From the NCBI RefSeq assembly GCF_001886815.1, contig NZ_CP018099.1, positions 3,160,501 through 3,224,500 of the forward strand: a stretch of DNA of 64,000 bases. Direction: 5' to 3'. How positions within the stretch are numbered: position 1 is the stretch's first letter; each line of letters opens with the position of its first letter. The position numbers and the translations under genes were made by a program. The notes below the pieces were generated by a model that worked only from the letters and a program-made list of their open reading frames with translations, ran no database searches and was not told the DNA's origin. Shown here one piece after another: positions 7,303 through 52,663 of this stretch. Origin of the DNA: Caldithrix abyssi DSM 13497 (GTDB lineage: Bacteria; Calditrichota; Calditrichia; Calditrichales; Calditrichaceae).

Positions 7303-7818
7303 CTACTTTAATGTCATCACCATGGTCATGTTACGGCCTTCGAATTGCTTTTTTCCTTCAACCTTGGCGATATCGCTTAATTCGTTTTCGATCTTTTCCA
7401 GCAATCGTTCGCCAAACTCTTTATGGGCCAGCTCTCTGCCCCGAAAATGCACCGTAAACTTGACCTTATTTTTGTTCATTAAAAATTCGCGCGCATGTTT
7501 CAATTTGTATTTCAGATCGTGATCTTCGGTTTTCGGCCGCATGCGAATTTCTTTTACAACAACCGTGTGCTGCTTCTTCTTACTTAATTTCTCTTTTTTA
7601 CTTTGCTCGTAAACGTATTTCCCGTAATCAAGAATTTTACAAACGGGCGGATTGGCGTTCGGCGCAATTTCCACCAAATCCAGTCCTTTTTCCTGCGCTA
7701 ATGCTAAAGCCTTATCCAGGGAAACAATACCTACCTGTTTCCCTTCGTCATCAATCAGCCGCACTTCTCTGGCTGTTATGGCTTCGTTAATTCGGTTTTT
7801 TTGTGTCAATTGAGCGAT
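7303..7818 (-). CDS. infC: Translation initiation factor IF-3, likely AUC start
   Basis: IF-3 binds the 30S subunit and proofreads start-codon pairing. The N-domain (RINEAITAREVRLIDDEGKQVG), linker (KKEKLSKKKQH) and C-domain (VKEIRMRPKTEDHDLKYKLKH, given in part; key REIRMRP-like run) are all present. No ATG lies at the 5' end. A TTG at 7809 is 18 nt from AGGAGG (7833-7828), too far. An in-frame ATC at 7818-7816 is 9 nt from it, giving M-A-Q-L-T-Q-K-N-R-I-N-E and 171 residues. Non-AUG starts of infC are known to allow IF-3 to control its own synthesis (AUU in E. coli), so AUC is the preferred start. Confidence 0.95.
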   Translation of the reverse strand: MAQLTQKNRINEAITAREVRLIDDEGKQVGIVSLDKALALAQEKGLDLVEIAPNANPPVCKILDYGKYVYEQSKKEKLSKKKQHTVVVKEIRMRPKTEDHDLKYKLKHAREFLMNKNKVKFTVHFRGRELAHKEFGERLLEKIENELSDIAKVEGKKQFEGRNMTMVMTLK

Positions 7819-10456: not shown

Positions 10457-10558
10457 AGCCTTTCTCCTGTTTTTTAATCTCTAAATATTATTTTCGGTGG
10501 CGAAATACAAAACTTAAAAAATGATGAAAAAAGGGAGTGAAATAGATCAGGAAAATAG

Positions 10559-10650
10559 CGGGAGTGTGTGGGAGTCGAACCCACCTGTCCCTTAAGCGGG
10601 ACACACGCGGCTTTGAAGGCCGGGGGGACCACCGGGCCCCATGCACTCCC
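10559..10650 (-). tRNA. selC: tRNA-Sec (UCA)
   Basis: 92 nt. The anticodon loop CTTCAAA gives UCA. The D stem has six pairs (GGGGCC with GGTCCC) around a four-base CGGT loop, the long variable arm pairs TGTCCC with GGGACA, the T stem is GTGGG/CCCAC, and the discriminator is G. The first seven acceptor pairs (GGGAGTG/CACTCCC) form, with the eighth position a C-A mismatch. These are hallmarks of bacterial selenocysteine tRNA, read at UGA with SelB. CCA is not encoded. selA, selB and selD are not in the window. Confidence 0.93.
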
Positions 10651-41851: not shown

Positions 41852-41880
41852 TAAAAAGGCTCATGGTCGATGAACCTTTT
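41852..41880 (-). terminator. Terminator of the mS38-like gene
   Basis: Minus-strand AAAGGTTCAT and ATGAGCCTTT form a 10-bp stem with one G-U pair around a 5-nt loop, then Ts. It overlaps the stop codon of the small gene and precedes xseA. Confidence 0.8.
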
Positions 41881-41974
41881 AACGGATCTTCTTTTTATGA
41901 CGATTTTTTCTTAAACGTTTTTTCCTTTTGTGCGTCGCCATCTTTGCGCGTTTTCTCTTCCGTCCACAAGGCAT
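41879..41974 (-). CDS. mS38/AURKAIP1-COX24-like small basic protein
   Basis: 31 residues: MPCGRKRKRAKMATHKRKKR then LRKNRHKKKIR. Sixteen are Lys or Arg. This is the short form of the AURKAIP1/COX24 domain, found as a ribosome-associated protein in Bacteroidota-related bacteria and in mitochondria as mS38. Start is ATG at 41974, 10 nt after AAGGAG. It lies between xseA and the zinc-ribbon/TPR gene. Identity rests on the HKRKKRLRKNRHKK core, which is short but distinctive. Confidence 0.82.
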   Translation of the reverse strand: MPCGRKRKRAKMATHKRKKRLRKNRHKKKIR

Positions 41975-41998: not shown

Positions 41999-42706
41999 TT
42001 AGGACTTATTTAACCTCTTTTTCGCTTCTTCGATAAATTGCTTTACTGTTGTCGCTTCTTTAGACTCGGGATAGACTTTTATTAATTTTTCCCAGGTAAT
42101 AATTGCATTCTGAAATTTATTTAAATTGTACTCAATAACGCCCTTGTTATAAAGCCCCAGGCGATGGTCTGGCTCCAGCTTTAAAGCTTCATCCACATAC
42201 ATCAACGCCGAATCGAGCTTTGCCAGGTTAAAGTAAGACACCCCAATATCAATAAATACTTCGGGCGTTTTTACCTGATGCTCTATCGCCTTTTTGTAGT
42301 AGATTTTTGCCAGATCAAAACGACCAATGTCAAAATAACTATTCGCCAGATGCACCATCAACTGGCCGTTTTCCGGTTCTTGTTTTAGCCTATCTTTAAG
42401 CTCCTGAATCTGGCGCATTTTTTCCATATCCGGATGATTCTGCTCCATAGGAGAACCCTGGCGCTGCATTTGCGAAGACATCCTTGATTTTAAAGTTTCT
42501 CGATTGCTGCTTAAAATTAAAAGCACCACAATAAGAGAAAAAATAAACGTTGCGCTCAGGGCAACTATTGCTTTGCGGCTTAATCCCCCCTCGCTTACAG
42601 GGGCGGCCTTTAAATTGTCTTTAATTTTCGCCCCGCATTTCGGACAAAAATTGGCGTCCTCAACAATATGGGCGCCGCATTCCGGACATTTAATCTTTTT
42701 ATCTAT
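41999..42706 (-). CDS. Zinc-ribbon, membrane-anchored TPR protein, likely AUA start
   Basis: 235 residues. Residues 6-28 form a zinc ribbon (CPECGAHIVEDANFCPKCG), 50-70 a transmembrane helix (AIVALSATFIFSLIVVLLIL), and about 100-235 TPR repeats (MVHLANSYFDIGRFDLAKIYYKKAI in part, then VFIDIGVSYFNLAKLDSALMY). The first in-frame ATG, GTG or TTG lies inside the membrane helix, so the ribbon must use another start. An in-frame TAA lies just before, and only AGG-AGG-CAG-GCT-ATA-GAT separates it. AGGAGG sits 6 nt before ATA at 42706, the best start. It precedes the mS38-like gene. Confidence 0.78.
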   Translation of the reverse strand: MDKKIKCPECGAHIVEDANFCPKCGAKIKDNLKAAPVSEGGLSRKAIVALSATFIFSLIVVLLILSSNRETLKSRMSSQMQRQGSPMEQNHPDMEKMRQIQELKDRLKQEPENGQLMVHLANSYFDIGRFDLAKIYYKKAIEHQVKTPEVFIDIGVSYFNLAKLDSALMYVDEALKLEPDHRLGLYNKGVIEYNLNKFQNAIITWEKLIKVYPESKEATTVKQFIEEAKKRLNKS

Positions 42707-43012
42707 AGCCTGCCTCCTTTATATTAAAAAATCAGCTAACAATTTTAATATTTTTAAGCGTTAATGTCAATTTTAATTTTAAATAATAGAATTCGCCCTA
42801 AAAAGGGGAGAACCGTCATTTGGAACGAAGAGAAAAATCTTATAACGGCAATAAAAACAATCTTACTTTTCAAGGATTCTCTTACTGGAATACTAAAAAA
42901 TCCTTTTTAGCCTGACATCATAATTTTTTGATTTTTAATTAATTAATCTCTAAGGAGAAAAAACGCATCCTGAGAACCTTTAATTCAATCATGCGTAAGC
43001 GGGCCTTTCCAT

Positions 43013-43318
43013 GTCATTCCCGCCCCCCCACCGTCATTCCCTCGCAAGCAGGAATCCCTGACACACCAGCCAGTCATTCCTGCGCAAGCGGGAATCCCTT
43101 TCACCTTTGCACGTCAACCAGTCATTCCTGCGAACGCAGGAATCCCATCCCTCCTTCAGGGGATTCCGGCTCTCGCTGCGCTCGGCCGGAATGACACCAG
43201 GCAGTCATTCCCGCGCAAGCGGGAATCCCCTCCCACCTTTCCACGTCATTCCCGCGCAAGCGGGATTCCCTTTCACTTTGCAGTGGATTCCGACTGTCGC
43301 TCCGTTCAGAAAGACAGC
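43013..43318. repeat. Dispersed hairpin repeats of the ATTCC(C/T)GCG family, second site
   Basis: At least five GTCATTCC...GGAATCCC palindromes, with the CGCGCAAGCG, CTCGCAAGCA and TGCGAACGCA loop variants, spaced less regularly than at 14822. They are joined to GATTCCGGCTCTCGCTGCG and to TCGGCCGGAATGACA, the same partner repeat. Confidence 0.85.
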
Positions 43319-45698: not shown

Positions 45699-47738
45699 TT
45701 AACCCATCTTGAACACTAAAACGGTTTAAGTTATTTAAAAACAACATGTCGTTCTTTTTTATTACCACTACAATATTTAAATTCTTATCTTTTTCATACC
45801 TAATGGCTTGGGCTTGATCTTAAATGCCTGCGCCATTAAATAATGGATCGCCTCCGGTTCGGTCGTATCTCTTATAACTAATAAATCTCCTTTCTGCGTT
45901 TTCATCTCCACGCTTACTCGCTGCTGTACGGAAAGTAATTCACGAATGGTTGTCCAGCGATGATAAACGCCTGCATCATGTAATTGTTTTTGAAGACTTA
46001 TCAATACATGAAAGGCTAAAATCGAAATGAAAATATGCCCTTCAATGCGTTTATCCTTCTGGTGAAAATTAGGCCTTAAGCCTAATTCACTCTTCAACGA
46101 GCGAAATCCATCCTCCACATCCGTTAAACTGATGTAGAGCTGCCAAATCTCACGATCCGTTAAATCCAGACGACTCGTCCGTAAATAATACGTGCCGGAA
46201 AATCGATCATCCATCTTTTGCTCATCTTTTATCTTCCAGCTGATCTCTGTCACGATACCATTGTGATGCTCAACCGTAATATCATAAAAATAGGCCACCT
46301 TTGCATGACGTTCCTTTATGCGGCCAATGCGTTCTAAAACCTTGGGATATTTCTTCGTGCCTCGTTTCTTGTGCAAACTCTCCGCCGCATATTTCAACTC
46401 CGCCTCAAAGCGCTGCTGATGAAATTGTCGAATGGCTTCCTCTTTCTTTTGCCTTGAGGCGCTGCGACAGTATAAATAAAGCTCTTTATCCTTACGGTAA
46501 AGATAGGCTTCCACTTTATGGCGTTGATCGTGATTAATCTCTTTAAAAGCATTTTCTTCGATCTCGATTTCCGGTTTACTGCGTGAGACAACCAGATAGT
46601 CGTGTCCACGCTTTGTGATCAGTTGCAAGTTCTCTTCTGTGGCAATCCCGGCATCTAAAATAATCAATTTCCTGACTTTGCCGCCTATCGTATCCAGAAT
46701 TTTAGACAAAGTCTCTGGTTCGGAAACATTGCCAGAGAAAAGACGACTCTCCTTGGGGAATCCATCCTCATCCAATACCAGGCCTAAAGTAACCAGGGGC
46801 ATATCGTGACGCTTATCTTTACTACGTCCGCGAGCCTTGAGTTCACTGGTACGGCTACTCTCAAAATACGTATTGGTTAAATCGTACAGGATGATCTTTT
46901 CCTGCAAGGAAAATAACAGACGCTCTTGCTCTACTAAACCATTCTCGATTTTGTCCTTATGTTCTAATAATTGATCCGTAATTCGATAAAGTTTATTGTG
47001 AGAAAGTCTTGAAAGGTCTAACTCTAAAAGCTCATCGATGGCGCTTTGCTTTTTGACCCAGCGTAAGGTCGCCCATTCGCTTGAGGGGTGCACCAGGCGC
47101 CCAACGATCAACAGTTCGGCCAGTTTAATATCCTTCTCCTTAAAGCCCAGCTTTTTTAAAAGTTCATTGAACTTAAGCTTTCTTAACATCATCAAACTGA
47201 TGTATTCGCCTCCTATACTGCGAGCATCTCTGAATTTGACAGAGCCCGTAAAAATGGTCTCGGTTTCCTGTGGGCTTTCTTTTTTTTCTACCTTTTCTTG
47301 TTTTAGTTTGTTTTGAATTAAAAGCGAGGCATAGCGCTGGGCTAATTGTTCAATTTGCTCATCCACTTCGATCAGTGAAGTTTGTCCGCTTATGATCTCT
47401 TCGATGCGATTGGCAAGTGTTTTCCATTGGTCTTTAGGAATGGTAAGCTTGCCCAGGTTGAGCAATTTTCTTTGTCTTGGGCCTTTTTCAGTACGATAGG
47501 ATTCGACCAATTGATGGTAAACGAAGGTTTTATCGTACCCTTTATTCTTTTTTGTGACTTCTTTAATAAACATGTTCAAATATAATCATATCAGTCAATT
47601 AAGTCAAGGGGGAAACCAATATAGTATGGGGCACTACAACGACATCTCGAAAACTCGATCCAAAAAAACCAATAACTTACAAAAACCGAAGGTGGAAATT
47701 TGGTGATTTGGGCTTAAATTTTGTTCAAGATGGGTTAA
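45699..47738. mobile_element. Insertion sequence, IS1634 type
   Basis: About 2.04 kb bounded by perfect 17-bp terminal inverted repeats, TTAACCCATCTTGAACA (45699-45715) and its complement (47722-47738), enclosing one transposase on the minus strand. I found no short target duplication at the ends. It lies in the repeat mosaic after uvrC. Confidence 0.88.
45777..47573 (-). CDS. IS1634-family DDE transposase
   Basis: 598 residues. The N-terminus (KTFVYHQLVESYRTEKGPRQ, given in part; then LLNLGKL) and the core with LYDLTNTYFESS, MPLVTLGLVLDEDGFP, LIILDAGIATEENL, GTYYLRTSRLDLTDREIWQLYI in part, and DVEDGFRSLKSELGLRP are typical of the IS1634 group of IS4-like transposases. Expected DDE acidic residues lie in the D of LYDLTNTYF, the D of LIILDAG and the E of GFRSLKSEL. 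It is intact and full length, so possibly active. ATG at 47573 is preferred over a TTG at 47579. Confidence 0.93.
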   Translation of the reverse strand: MFIKEVTKKNKGYDKTFVYHQLVESYRTEKGPRQRKLLNLGKLTIPKDQWKTLANRIEEIISGQTSLIEVDEQIEQLAQRYASLLIQNKLKQEKVEKKESPQETETIFTGSVKFRDARSIGGEYISLMMLRKLKFNELLKKLGFKEKDIKLAELLIVGRLVHPSSEWATLRWVKKQSAIDELLELDLSRLSHNKLYRITDQLLEHKDKIENGLVEQERLLFSLQEKIILYDLTNTYFESSRTSELKARGRSKDKRHDMPLVTLGLVLDEDGFPKESRLFSGNVSEPETLSKILDTIGGKVRKLIILDAGIATEENLQLITKRGHDYLVVSRSKPEIEIEENAFKEINHDQRHKVEAYLYRKDKELYLYCRSASRQKKEEAIRQFHQQRFEAELKYAAESLHKKRGTKKYPKVLERIGRIKERHAKVAYFYDITVEHHNGIVTEISWKIKDEQKMDDRFSGTYYLRTSRLDLTDREIWQLYISLTDVEDGFRSLKSELGLRPNFHQKDKRIEGHIFISILAFHVLISLQKQLHDAGVYHRWTTIRELLSVQQRVSVEMKTQKGDLLVIRDTTEPEAIHYLMAQAFKIKPKPLGMKKIRI

Positions 47739-50953: not shown

Positions 50954-52663
50954 GAGGCTGTTGCATGGGGGGGGGGAGGAATTAATGTTTATATTCTCCG
51001 ATATTGATAATTTTTTCTCATTCTTAAACGTTGGGCAAAATATAGAATTAAAAATGCCAAAATATTCTTTGAAAATAAAATTAATAGATCATCTTTTTCT
51101 TGTGATGCTTTTATAAACGCTGCTAAACGTTTCCCTAACATATTTTTAAATAGAACATTAATATTATGCCCAATACACATTAACGTAAATTCACTACGAA
51201 CATTATTAAGACCAGATAAGGAAAATCCACGATAGCCTAAATTATGCTTCAAATTACCAAAAACAGGTTCAACTGTCACCGAACGCTTTTTTAGTCGTTC
51301 CTGCGCCGCTGAAGTTTGTAACTTTTTCGCCATACGTTCGCAATAACTCTCATTAACTGAACGATGGATTTGCTTAACTTTCTTTTTACTGGAAATGCAT
51401 AAATTAATTAAGGGACAGTCCTGACAATCATTGGAACGATATACGATCCGTTCGCTATTCCTCTCAACTGGAAAAAGCTTCTTACCCGCCGGACATTCAT
51501 AGTAATCTCCCTGTTCATGATACACAAAATCACTTCGTTTTAGTTTTCTTTCTTCTTTTTGCAATTCTTCCTTGGAGGTCGGTGTCTCCTTTATCGAACG
51601 ATTGGATAACTGGGGATCGGCTATTACGGCATCGATCTGCTTTTCTTCCAATTCTTTTAGGTCTGCGCTATTGTGATAACCGGAATCGGCTGTGTAAGAT
51701 CGCTTATCATCTGAACCAAGATTCTTCTCTACTTGTTCTTGGATCGGTATGAATTGACCCTGGTCGTTGGGCTGGCTTACCACTTCATGGGCTACAATTA
51801 AATGACTGGACATATCTACGCCTAATTGTGCGTTATAACCCGGCCCATCCACCGAAGGCATCATGCGGGCATCCGGCTCTTTTACATTTATTTGATGTCT
51901 TGAACGATGTTCTGATTTGAGCTGTTTCTTACGCTCTTTCAATTGGGCTTTACGTTCTAATATCTCTTTCTCTAAGCGCTCAAGCCGTTCTTTCTCCGCT
52001 CGAAGAGTTTCTAAATCTAATTCATCCGTGGCCCCCTGTTCTACAAAATTACAGCGCTGCATGTATTGCTTGATCTCTGCTCTTAACTTCTCTATACGTT
52101 TGTCTAATTGATCCTCAGTGTAGCCATGACGCTTACTGCTGTGCGCTTTGATTTTCGTGCCATCTATGGCTATCTGGTTGAAACTACTTATGCCTTCGGC
52201 CTGGGCAATTAAAAGTATCTCTACAAAATATTGGTCTAATAAATCCAAATGTGCCTTGCGAAAACGACTTAATGTACTATGATCCGGATGCTGATTCCCA
52301 GTGATATAAATGTAGCGCGTATCAAATTTACACAATTCCTCCAGCTTACGGGTGCTGGTAATGCCGTTACTATAAGCATAAAACCATAAGGCAAGCATCA
52401 TGTCTGGGGCATAAGAATCACCGCCTTGCGAACTATAACGGGAATAAAGTGCACTTAAATCAAGGCGCGAAACCAACTCCACTACAAATCGACTCTTTGG
52501 ATCGTCTCTGGCAAAATCTTCCACACTATAGCCAAAGAGATTCATTTGTGAGCGATTATAAGTAATAAAACTCATGGAATTCCTTTGTTATTACTTGTTT
52601 TATCTGTCGCCCAGAATTTACAAATTTTTTGAATTTTACTCAAACTGAATTTGCAACAGCCTC
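50954..52663. mobile_element. Insertion sequence, IS1182 type, with CCGG target duplication
   Basis: 1.71 kb. Terminal inverted repeats GAGGCTGTTGCA (50954-50965) and TGCAACAGCCTC (52652-52663) enclose one transposase on the minus strand. CCGG occurs on both outer sides (50950-50953 and 52664-52667), a likely 4-bp duplication. The flanks are complementary (GATTTCTCTCCCTC and GAGGGGAAAGAGAGAAATC), so the element sits in the loop of a palindrome. Confidence 0.88.
50989..52575 (-). CDS. IS1182-family transposase
   Basis: 528 residues. DUF772-like N-terminus (SRFVVELVSRLDLSALY, PDMMLALWFYAYSNGI, GNQHPDHSTLSRFRK), a coiled coil (about 160-225), the DDE domain (IAIDGTKIKAHSSK; YTADSGYHNSADLKELEEK) and the C-terminal cysteine-rich DDE_Tnp_1_6 segment (YYECPAGKKLF, DCQDCPLINLCISSKK, VEPVFGNLKHNLGYRGFSLS). 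AAGGA precedes the ATG. Intact, so possibly active. Confidence 0.95.
   Translation of the reverse strand: MSFITYNRSQMNLFGYSVEDFARDDPKSRFVVELVSRLDLSALYSRYSSQGGDSYAPDMMLALWFYAYSNGITSTRKLEELCKFDTRYIYITGNQHPDHSTLSRFRKAHLDLLDQYFVEILLIAQAEGISSFNQIAIDGTKIKAHSSKRHGYTEDQLDKRIEKLRAEIKQYMQRCNFVEQGATDELDLETLRAEKERLERLEKEILERKAQLKERKKQLKSEHRSRHQINVKEPDARMMPSVDGPGYNAQLGVDMSSHLIVAHEVVSQPNDQGQFIPIQEQVEKNLGSDDKRSYTADSGYHNSADLKELEEKQIDAVIADPQLSNRSIKETPTSKEELQKEERKLKRSDFVYHEQGDYYECPAGKKLFPVERNSERIVYRSNDCQDCPLINLCISSKKKVKQIHRSVNESYCERMAKKLQTSAAQERLKKRSVTVEPVFGNLKHNLGYRGFSLSGLNNVRSEFTLMCIGHNINVLFKNMLGKRLAAFIKASQEKDDLLILFSKNILAFLILYFAQRLRMRKNYQYRRI

Follow-up and report, generated by a model that had tools for sequence, protein, structure and literature searches.

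In the Caldithrix abyssi DSM 13497 genome, comparison with orthologues identifies an AUA triplet as the real start codon of a gene for a zinc-ribbon/TPR membrane protein, located in the 64,000-nucleotide stretch analysed here (the window; contig NZ_CP018099.1, positions 3,160,501 to 3,224,500). In the explanation that we consider, taken as a whole, to be highly probable, this start would derive from an ancestral change of AUG to AUH (AUA, AUC or AUU), and would act as an IF3-responsive throttle on an mRNA shared with the ribosomal protein bS22.

On the minus strand, the region reads TAA AGG AGG CAG GCT ATA GAT AAA AAG ATT AAA TGT, and the following features were retrieved from it and from the frame downstream:

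42721-42719, minus strand: TAA, in-frame stop upstream, read from the sequence
42713..42720, minus strand: Shine-Dalgarno (SD) sequence AAAGGAGG, core AGGAGG at 42718-42713, read from the sequence
42712-42707, minus strand: CAGGCT spacer, 6 nt between AGGAGG and ATA
42704..42706, minus strand: AUA start codon of the zinc-ribbon/TPR gene, assigned from SD spacing and orthologues
41999..42706, minus strand: membrane protein with zinc ribbon, single TM helix and TPR, 235 aa from the AUA, assigned from Pfam and from orthologues in the order and class
42527..42529, minus strand: GTG, first in-frame canonical start, inside the TM helix, from table-11 start calling

The TPR frame spans 239 codons from stop to stop (42718-41999). 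Within this frame, table-11 start calling returns GTG 42529 alone, i.e. a protein of 176 aa starting 3' of the zinc ribbon, 59 codons after the ATA. The two-CxxC zinc ribbon and the TPR domain had originally been predicted to share one frame, and Pfam indeed scores both there: the zinc ribbon PF13240 reaches 36 bits (cut-off 25), alongside matches to PF13248 and TPR_1/2/8, while NCBIfam returned no named family above its cut-off for the TPR protein. The original prediction was also accurate in placing the first ATG, GTG or TTG within the membrane helix (GTG 42529), an in-frame TAA upstream, and an ATA at 42706, 6 nt from AGGAGG. Its claim that this ATA is the only plausible start holds as well, since no canonical alternative keeps the zinc ribbon and the orthologues agree. 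Translation from AUA 42706 would give the N-terminus (f)M-DKKIKCPECGAHIVEDANFCPK.

The order to which the window's genome belongs is represented here by two families, its own (f1, 15 genomes) and a sister family (f2, six genomes). The TPR gene was found in 13 of the 15 f1 genomes, one of which (G001) was left out of the start-codon count because a contig end cuts off the 5' part of the gene. The start position is occupied by ATA, ATC or ATT in all 12 genomes with an intact 5' end, which represent nine genera:

ATA start (four genomes): G000, G002, G003, G010
ATC start (six genomes): G004, G008, G009, G011, G012, G013
ATT start (two genomes): G006, G014

The AUH codon precedes the first Cys by four codons in 10 of these 12 genomes, the other two (G000 and G002) having two extra codons between start and first Cys. 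The f3, f5 and f6 genomes have an ATG at this same distance of four codons (e.g. ATG GCG AAA AAA TGT in f5 versus ATC GCG AAC AAA TGT in f1), and in the sister family an ATG is located five codons before the Cys. Of two f4 sequences, one has ATG and the other (L029) TTG/ATT. A usable canonical alternative is absent from 11 of the 12 f1 genomes; G010 is ambiguous, as it also has an ATG, two codons before the ATA and 2 nt after the SD, that could serve as a canonical start. An upstream TTG is also present in G011 and G008, with an SD spacing that is wrong or absent. A search for related loci in genome contigs retrieved one weak, uninformative Bacteroidales match. The maintenance of an AUH start across the whole family points, by analogy with known systems, to deliberately low translation that is probably IF3-sensitive.

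Non-AUG starts detected in a single genome are usually errors or misannotations, which speaks for a sequencing or assembly error concealing an ATG. However, when start codons are compared, as was proposed along with the original prediction, 11 other, independently sequenced genomes turn out to have ATA, ATC or ATT at the equivalent place, with A, C or T as third base. This excludes the error restoring an ATG that the prediction had named as its own refutation, and leaves this explanation a negligible probability. Initiation further 3', at GTG 42529 or at an ATG, with a zinc ribbon that is untranslated or a relic, corresponds to the output of the table-11 gene caller, but it would remove the conserved ribbon together with half of the membrane helix. 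Both CxxC motifs are retained in all 30 orthologues used, the segment 5' of GTG 42529 scores as coding, and the ribbon is translated from an ATG in outgroup families, all of which make such a start very improbable. Gene callers restricted to ATG, GTG and TTG thus hide starts of this kind in annotated genomes.

The duplex between the SD of the window's TPR gene and a canonical anti-SD amounts to -12.0 kcal/mol, stronger than for 93% of the ATG-started genes of the sampled genome (top 7%). Across orthologues, the median SD-antiSD energy is -9.45 kcal/mol for AUH genes versus -5.6 kcal/mol for AUG genes (P=0.0015, related sequences being non-independent), and family means are -9.25 kcal/mol for f1 versus -4.5 kcal/mol for the sister family. 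Strong enrichment of the motifs AGGAG, AAGGA and GGAGG upstream of ATG genes, rather than the 16S 3' end, indicates that a canonical anti-SD is in use.

Two other sources of control were considered and set aside. A stable RNA hairpin over the start was not found (z of 0.75 and 0.67), so that hairpin control of the AUA start is unsupported. As for an unusual initiator tRNA, the tRNA-Met genes among the 30 tRNA loci scanned all have the anticodon CAU, and no unusual initiator was flagged among them; 13 further tRNA matches are only partly covered by these loci.

The TPR gene is followed, after a gap of 24 nt, by a short second cistron, and signals for transcription were predicted on both sides of the pair:

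42742..42770, minus strand: predicted sigma70-type promoter TTGACA-17-TAAAAT, 11/12 matches
41879..41974, minus strand: bS22 (mS38 / AURKAIP1-COX24-like), 31 aa, ATG start with its own strong SD, second cistron, assigned from PDB matches
41854..41880, minus strand: predicted intrinsic terminator, AAAAGGTTCAT...ATGAGCCTTTTT, hairpin and T-rich tail

The bS22 open reading frame matches the PDB entries 9i5v (AURKAIP1/COX24 domain), 8fmw (Borrelia bS22) and 7jil, with E-values from 3.3e-8 to 2.5e-7. Of the 30 listed loci with an intact TPR gene, 27 carry bS22 directly 3' of it, class-wide and including outgroup families; the bS22 pattern was unmatched in the remaining three. Seven of the 12 family members have the promoter motif TTGACA/T-17-TAAAAT 34-45 nt 5' of the start codon, and a further two have TTGACT-17-TAAACT. 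Likewise, a hairpin of the form GGTTCAT/ATGARCC or similar, with a T-rich tail, follows bS22 in every examined f1 or f2 locus holding this gene. Promoter, AUH-started TPR gene, AUG-started bS22 and terminator therefore form a conserved two-gene unit. This shared unit and the conservation of the non-AUG start, neither of which the original prediction reports, are what give the AUA start its meaning. In Borrelia, bS22 binds among the 16S helices h2, h27, h44 and h45 (PMC10618245).

The sequence of the terminator hairpin itself, AAGGTTCAT...ATGARCCTT, is kept across the two families beyond the needs of a terminator, and a further role of this element may be possible.

A maximum-likelihood tree of 30 TPR-gene orthologues was computed, with 200 bootstrap trees. 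The AUH sequences occupy one side of a single branch (support 84/91, recovered in 83% of bootstrap trees), suggesting, with moderate tree support, that the switch from AUG to AUH was one event. It was followed by at least four changes of the third base among A, C and T and by no return to a clear ATG. The chance of never hitting G is approximately 0.2 if every change is free, and the number of changes alone is thus weak evidence; the apparent lack of any clear AUG across nine genera with long branches is nonetheless notable. This family-wide switch amounts to a natural experiment, as the main differences between the orthologues are the start codon and the strength of the SD, and such a set makes IF3 regulation of genes beyond infC directly testable.

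The genome was then surveyed for ATA, ATC or ATT codons preceded by a strong SD and lacking a canonical start in their vicinity. The survey covered 2.46 Mb (approx. 49% of the 4,978,541-base single-contig genome; 1670 predicted genes), under a rule that misses short genes and genes whose AUH and first canonical codons are close together. Among all AUH candidates, the TPR gene came out on top both at 864 kb and over the full 2.46 Mb, and only two other convincing AUH starts emerged:

7303..7818, minus strand: infC (IF3), AUC start 7818-7816, SD AGGAGG at 9 nt; PF05198, PF00707, TIGR00168
L090:1396 (genome position 126396), minus strand: hflX, AUA start after AAAGGAGGT; TIGR03156, 464 bits

Apart from these, AUH starts are very rare among the 1670 predicted genes surveyed. 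The AUC start of infC, reported by the original prediction, is indeed present in the window, where it serves as a positive control and makes an apt comparison, and is conserved as AUC or AUU in every readable f1 and f2 genome, that is, order-wide. For hflX, a canonical start is absent for 25 codons, and the AUA is common to all three genomes of the genus with the gene (G000, G002 and G003); the other f1 genera with the gene mostly have ATG near this place. HflX is an alternative ribosome-recycling GTPase (PMC9067457), and both infC and hflX are ribosome-linked.

The survey yielded five further AUH candidates that were not retained. The candidate at 2011393 has a clear ATG at MKKDFDFIVIGSG; those at 2294120 and 3674226 have an ATG three codons on, and those at 1292740 and 524977 depend on an extension without domain support. 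None of the five is disproved, the last four counting as weaker candidates.

In the mechanism that we propose, the AUG of the family ancestor would have become AUH and been retained since. The strong SD would hold the ribosome on the weak AUH codon, and one strong promoter would feed bS22 translation from its normal AUG, so that the TPR membrane protein would be made at a fraction of the bS22 level. Whenever IF3 falls short of 30S subunits, the amount of TPR protein would rise, as for infC. IF3 sensitivity is expected because IF3 tests for, and rejects, a mismatch between the third codon base and the CAU anticodon of the initiator tRNA. Codons with weak third-base pairs are repressed by IF3, yield little product and become disfavoured as IF3 rises (PMC10158994), and S. 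aureus reporters with AUA or AUU starts and extended SDs give approximately 10% of the AUG yield (PMC13009471). Discrimination by IF3 against AUA 42706 would follow by extension from work in E. coli, Streptomyces and S. aureus. The analysis thus establishes where the gene starts, that the segment is coding, how the start is conserved and in which direction it changed, together with SD strength, gene order, promoter and terminator; we infer from there the low yield, the response to IF3 and the purpose of the throttle. The sister family seems to obtain low translation of its first cistron through AUG and a weak SD; the AUH codon and strong SD of f1 would add IF3 sensitivity to this, either as a signal or as a by-product.

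It is quite possible, although we would not put it at even chances, that the AUH start does no more than act as a static throttle, keeping TPR protein scarce relative to bS22, with the IF3 level carrying no signal. A ribosomal protein in second position is reason enough for low translation of the first cistron, the weak SDs of the AUG-started gene in the sister family would also give low translation, and some S. aureus AUU starts act without condition dependence (PMC13009471). Yet a weak SD would suffice for this purpose, whereas the family retained an IF3-type codon behind a strong SD. IF3 and HflX, the products of the only two further genes with a convincing AUH start, are both involved in subunit separation. 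Neutral drift, by which a poor start was fixed once in a dispensable or tolerant protein and simply persisted, agrees with the single origin and with the third base having varied since. It is unlikely, as the strong SD and the conserved promoter were maintained, the protein is evidently constrained, and reversion to AUG, which takes one base, is not clearly seen in 12 genomes of nine genera.

Building on the IF3-responsive throttle, a small IF3-sensed regulon comprising infC, hflX and the TPR-bS22 unit can be tentatively envisaged in Caldithrix. AUG would have been replaced by AUH at different depths (the order for infC, the family for the TPR-bS22 unit, the genus for hflX), and whenever IF3 became scarce in comparison with free 30S subunits, the factors that keep subunits apart or service them would increase together. 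We hold this regulon to be rather doubtful, as it rests on three genes and a half-genome survey, with infC expected in advance. If hflX and the bS22 unit do respond to IF3, they would constitute, to our knowledge, the first multi-gene set controlled in this way besides infC and isolated targets like sigR.

Several other elements of the window deserve mention. Approximately five 36-nt palindromic repeats (GTCATTCCCGCGCAAGCGGGAATCC), resembling REP/PU elements, occupy positions 43023-43270 between the TPR gene and uvrC. A tRNA-SeC with anticodon UCA (10558-10650, minus strand) suggests a selenocysteine system. Open reading frames of 600 aa (45777-47579) and 528 aa (50989-52575), both on the minus strand and presumably transposase-like, lie in an otherwise housekeeping region.

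Among known systems, the closest is infC itself, with AUU, AUC or AUA starts and IF3 autoregulation in E. coli, Streptomyces, S. aureus and this genome. It shares with the TPR gene an AUH codon, a strong SD, conservation within a clade and a tie to the ribosome, but the TPR product is not IF3, so that any loop would make the gene an IF3 target rather than an autoregulated one. In S. aureus, cvfC1 (AUU) and ccpN (AUA) also combine a conserved non-canonical start with an extended SD, and cvfC1 is likewise the first gene of an operon and has a putative zinc finger (PMC13009471). The proteins and the phylum are however unrelated, and those starts were demonstrated by ribosome profiling and reporters, whereas ours is deduced from sequence. 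Streptomyces sigR is similarly a regulatory target with a non-canonical start outside infC, but differs in its codon (GTC), in encoding a sigma factor and in its experimentally shown repression by IF3 (PMC5472188). In E. coli pcnB, according to the passage of PMC1780047 that cites this work, an AUU start limits the amount of protein, as proposed here. The product of pcnB is, however, poly(A) polymerase. We know of no ribosomal protein on a shared mRNA with this gene. Finally, the second cistron matches the bS22 chains of 8fmw, 7jil and 9i5v over 28-29 residues; Borrelia bS22 is reported with a GUG start (PMC10618245), whereas here bS22 starts with ATG and the odd start belongs to the preceding gene. 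No report of an AUH start on the TPR-bS22 gene family or operon was found in the literature searched, and the AUH start of the TPR gene thereby joins the known precedents of infC, pcnB, sigR and ccpN/cvfC1.
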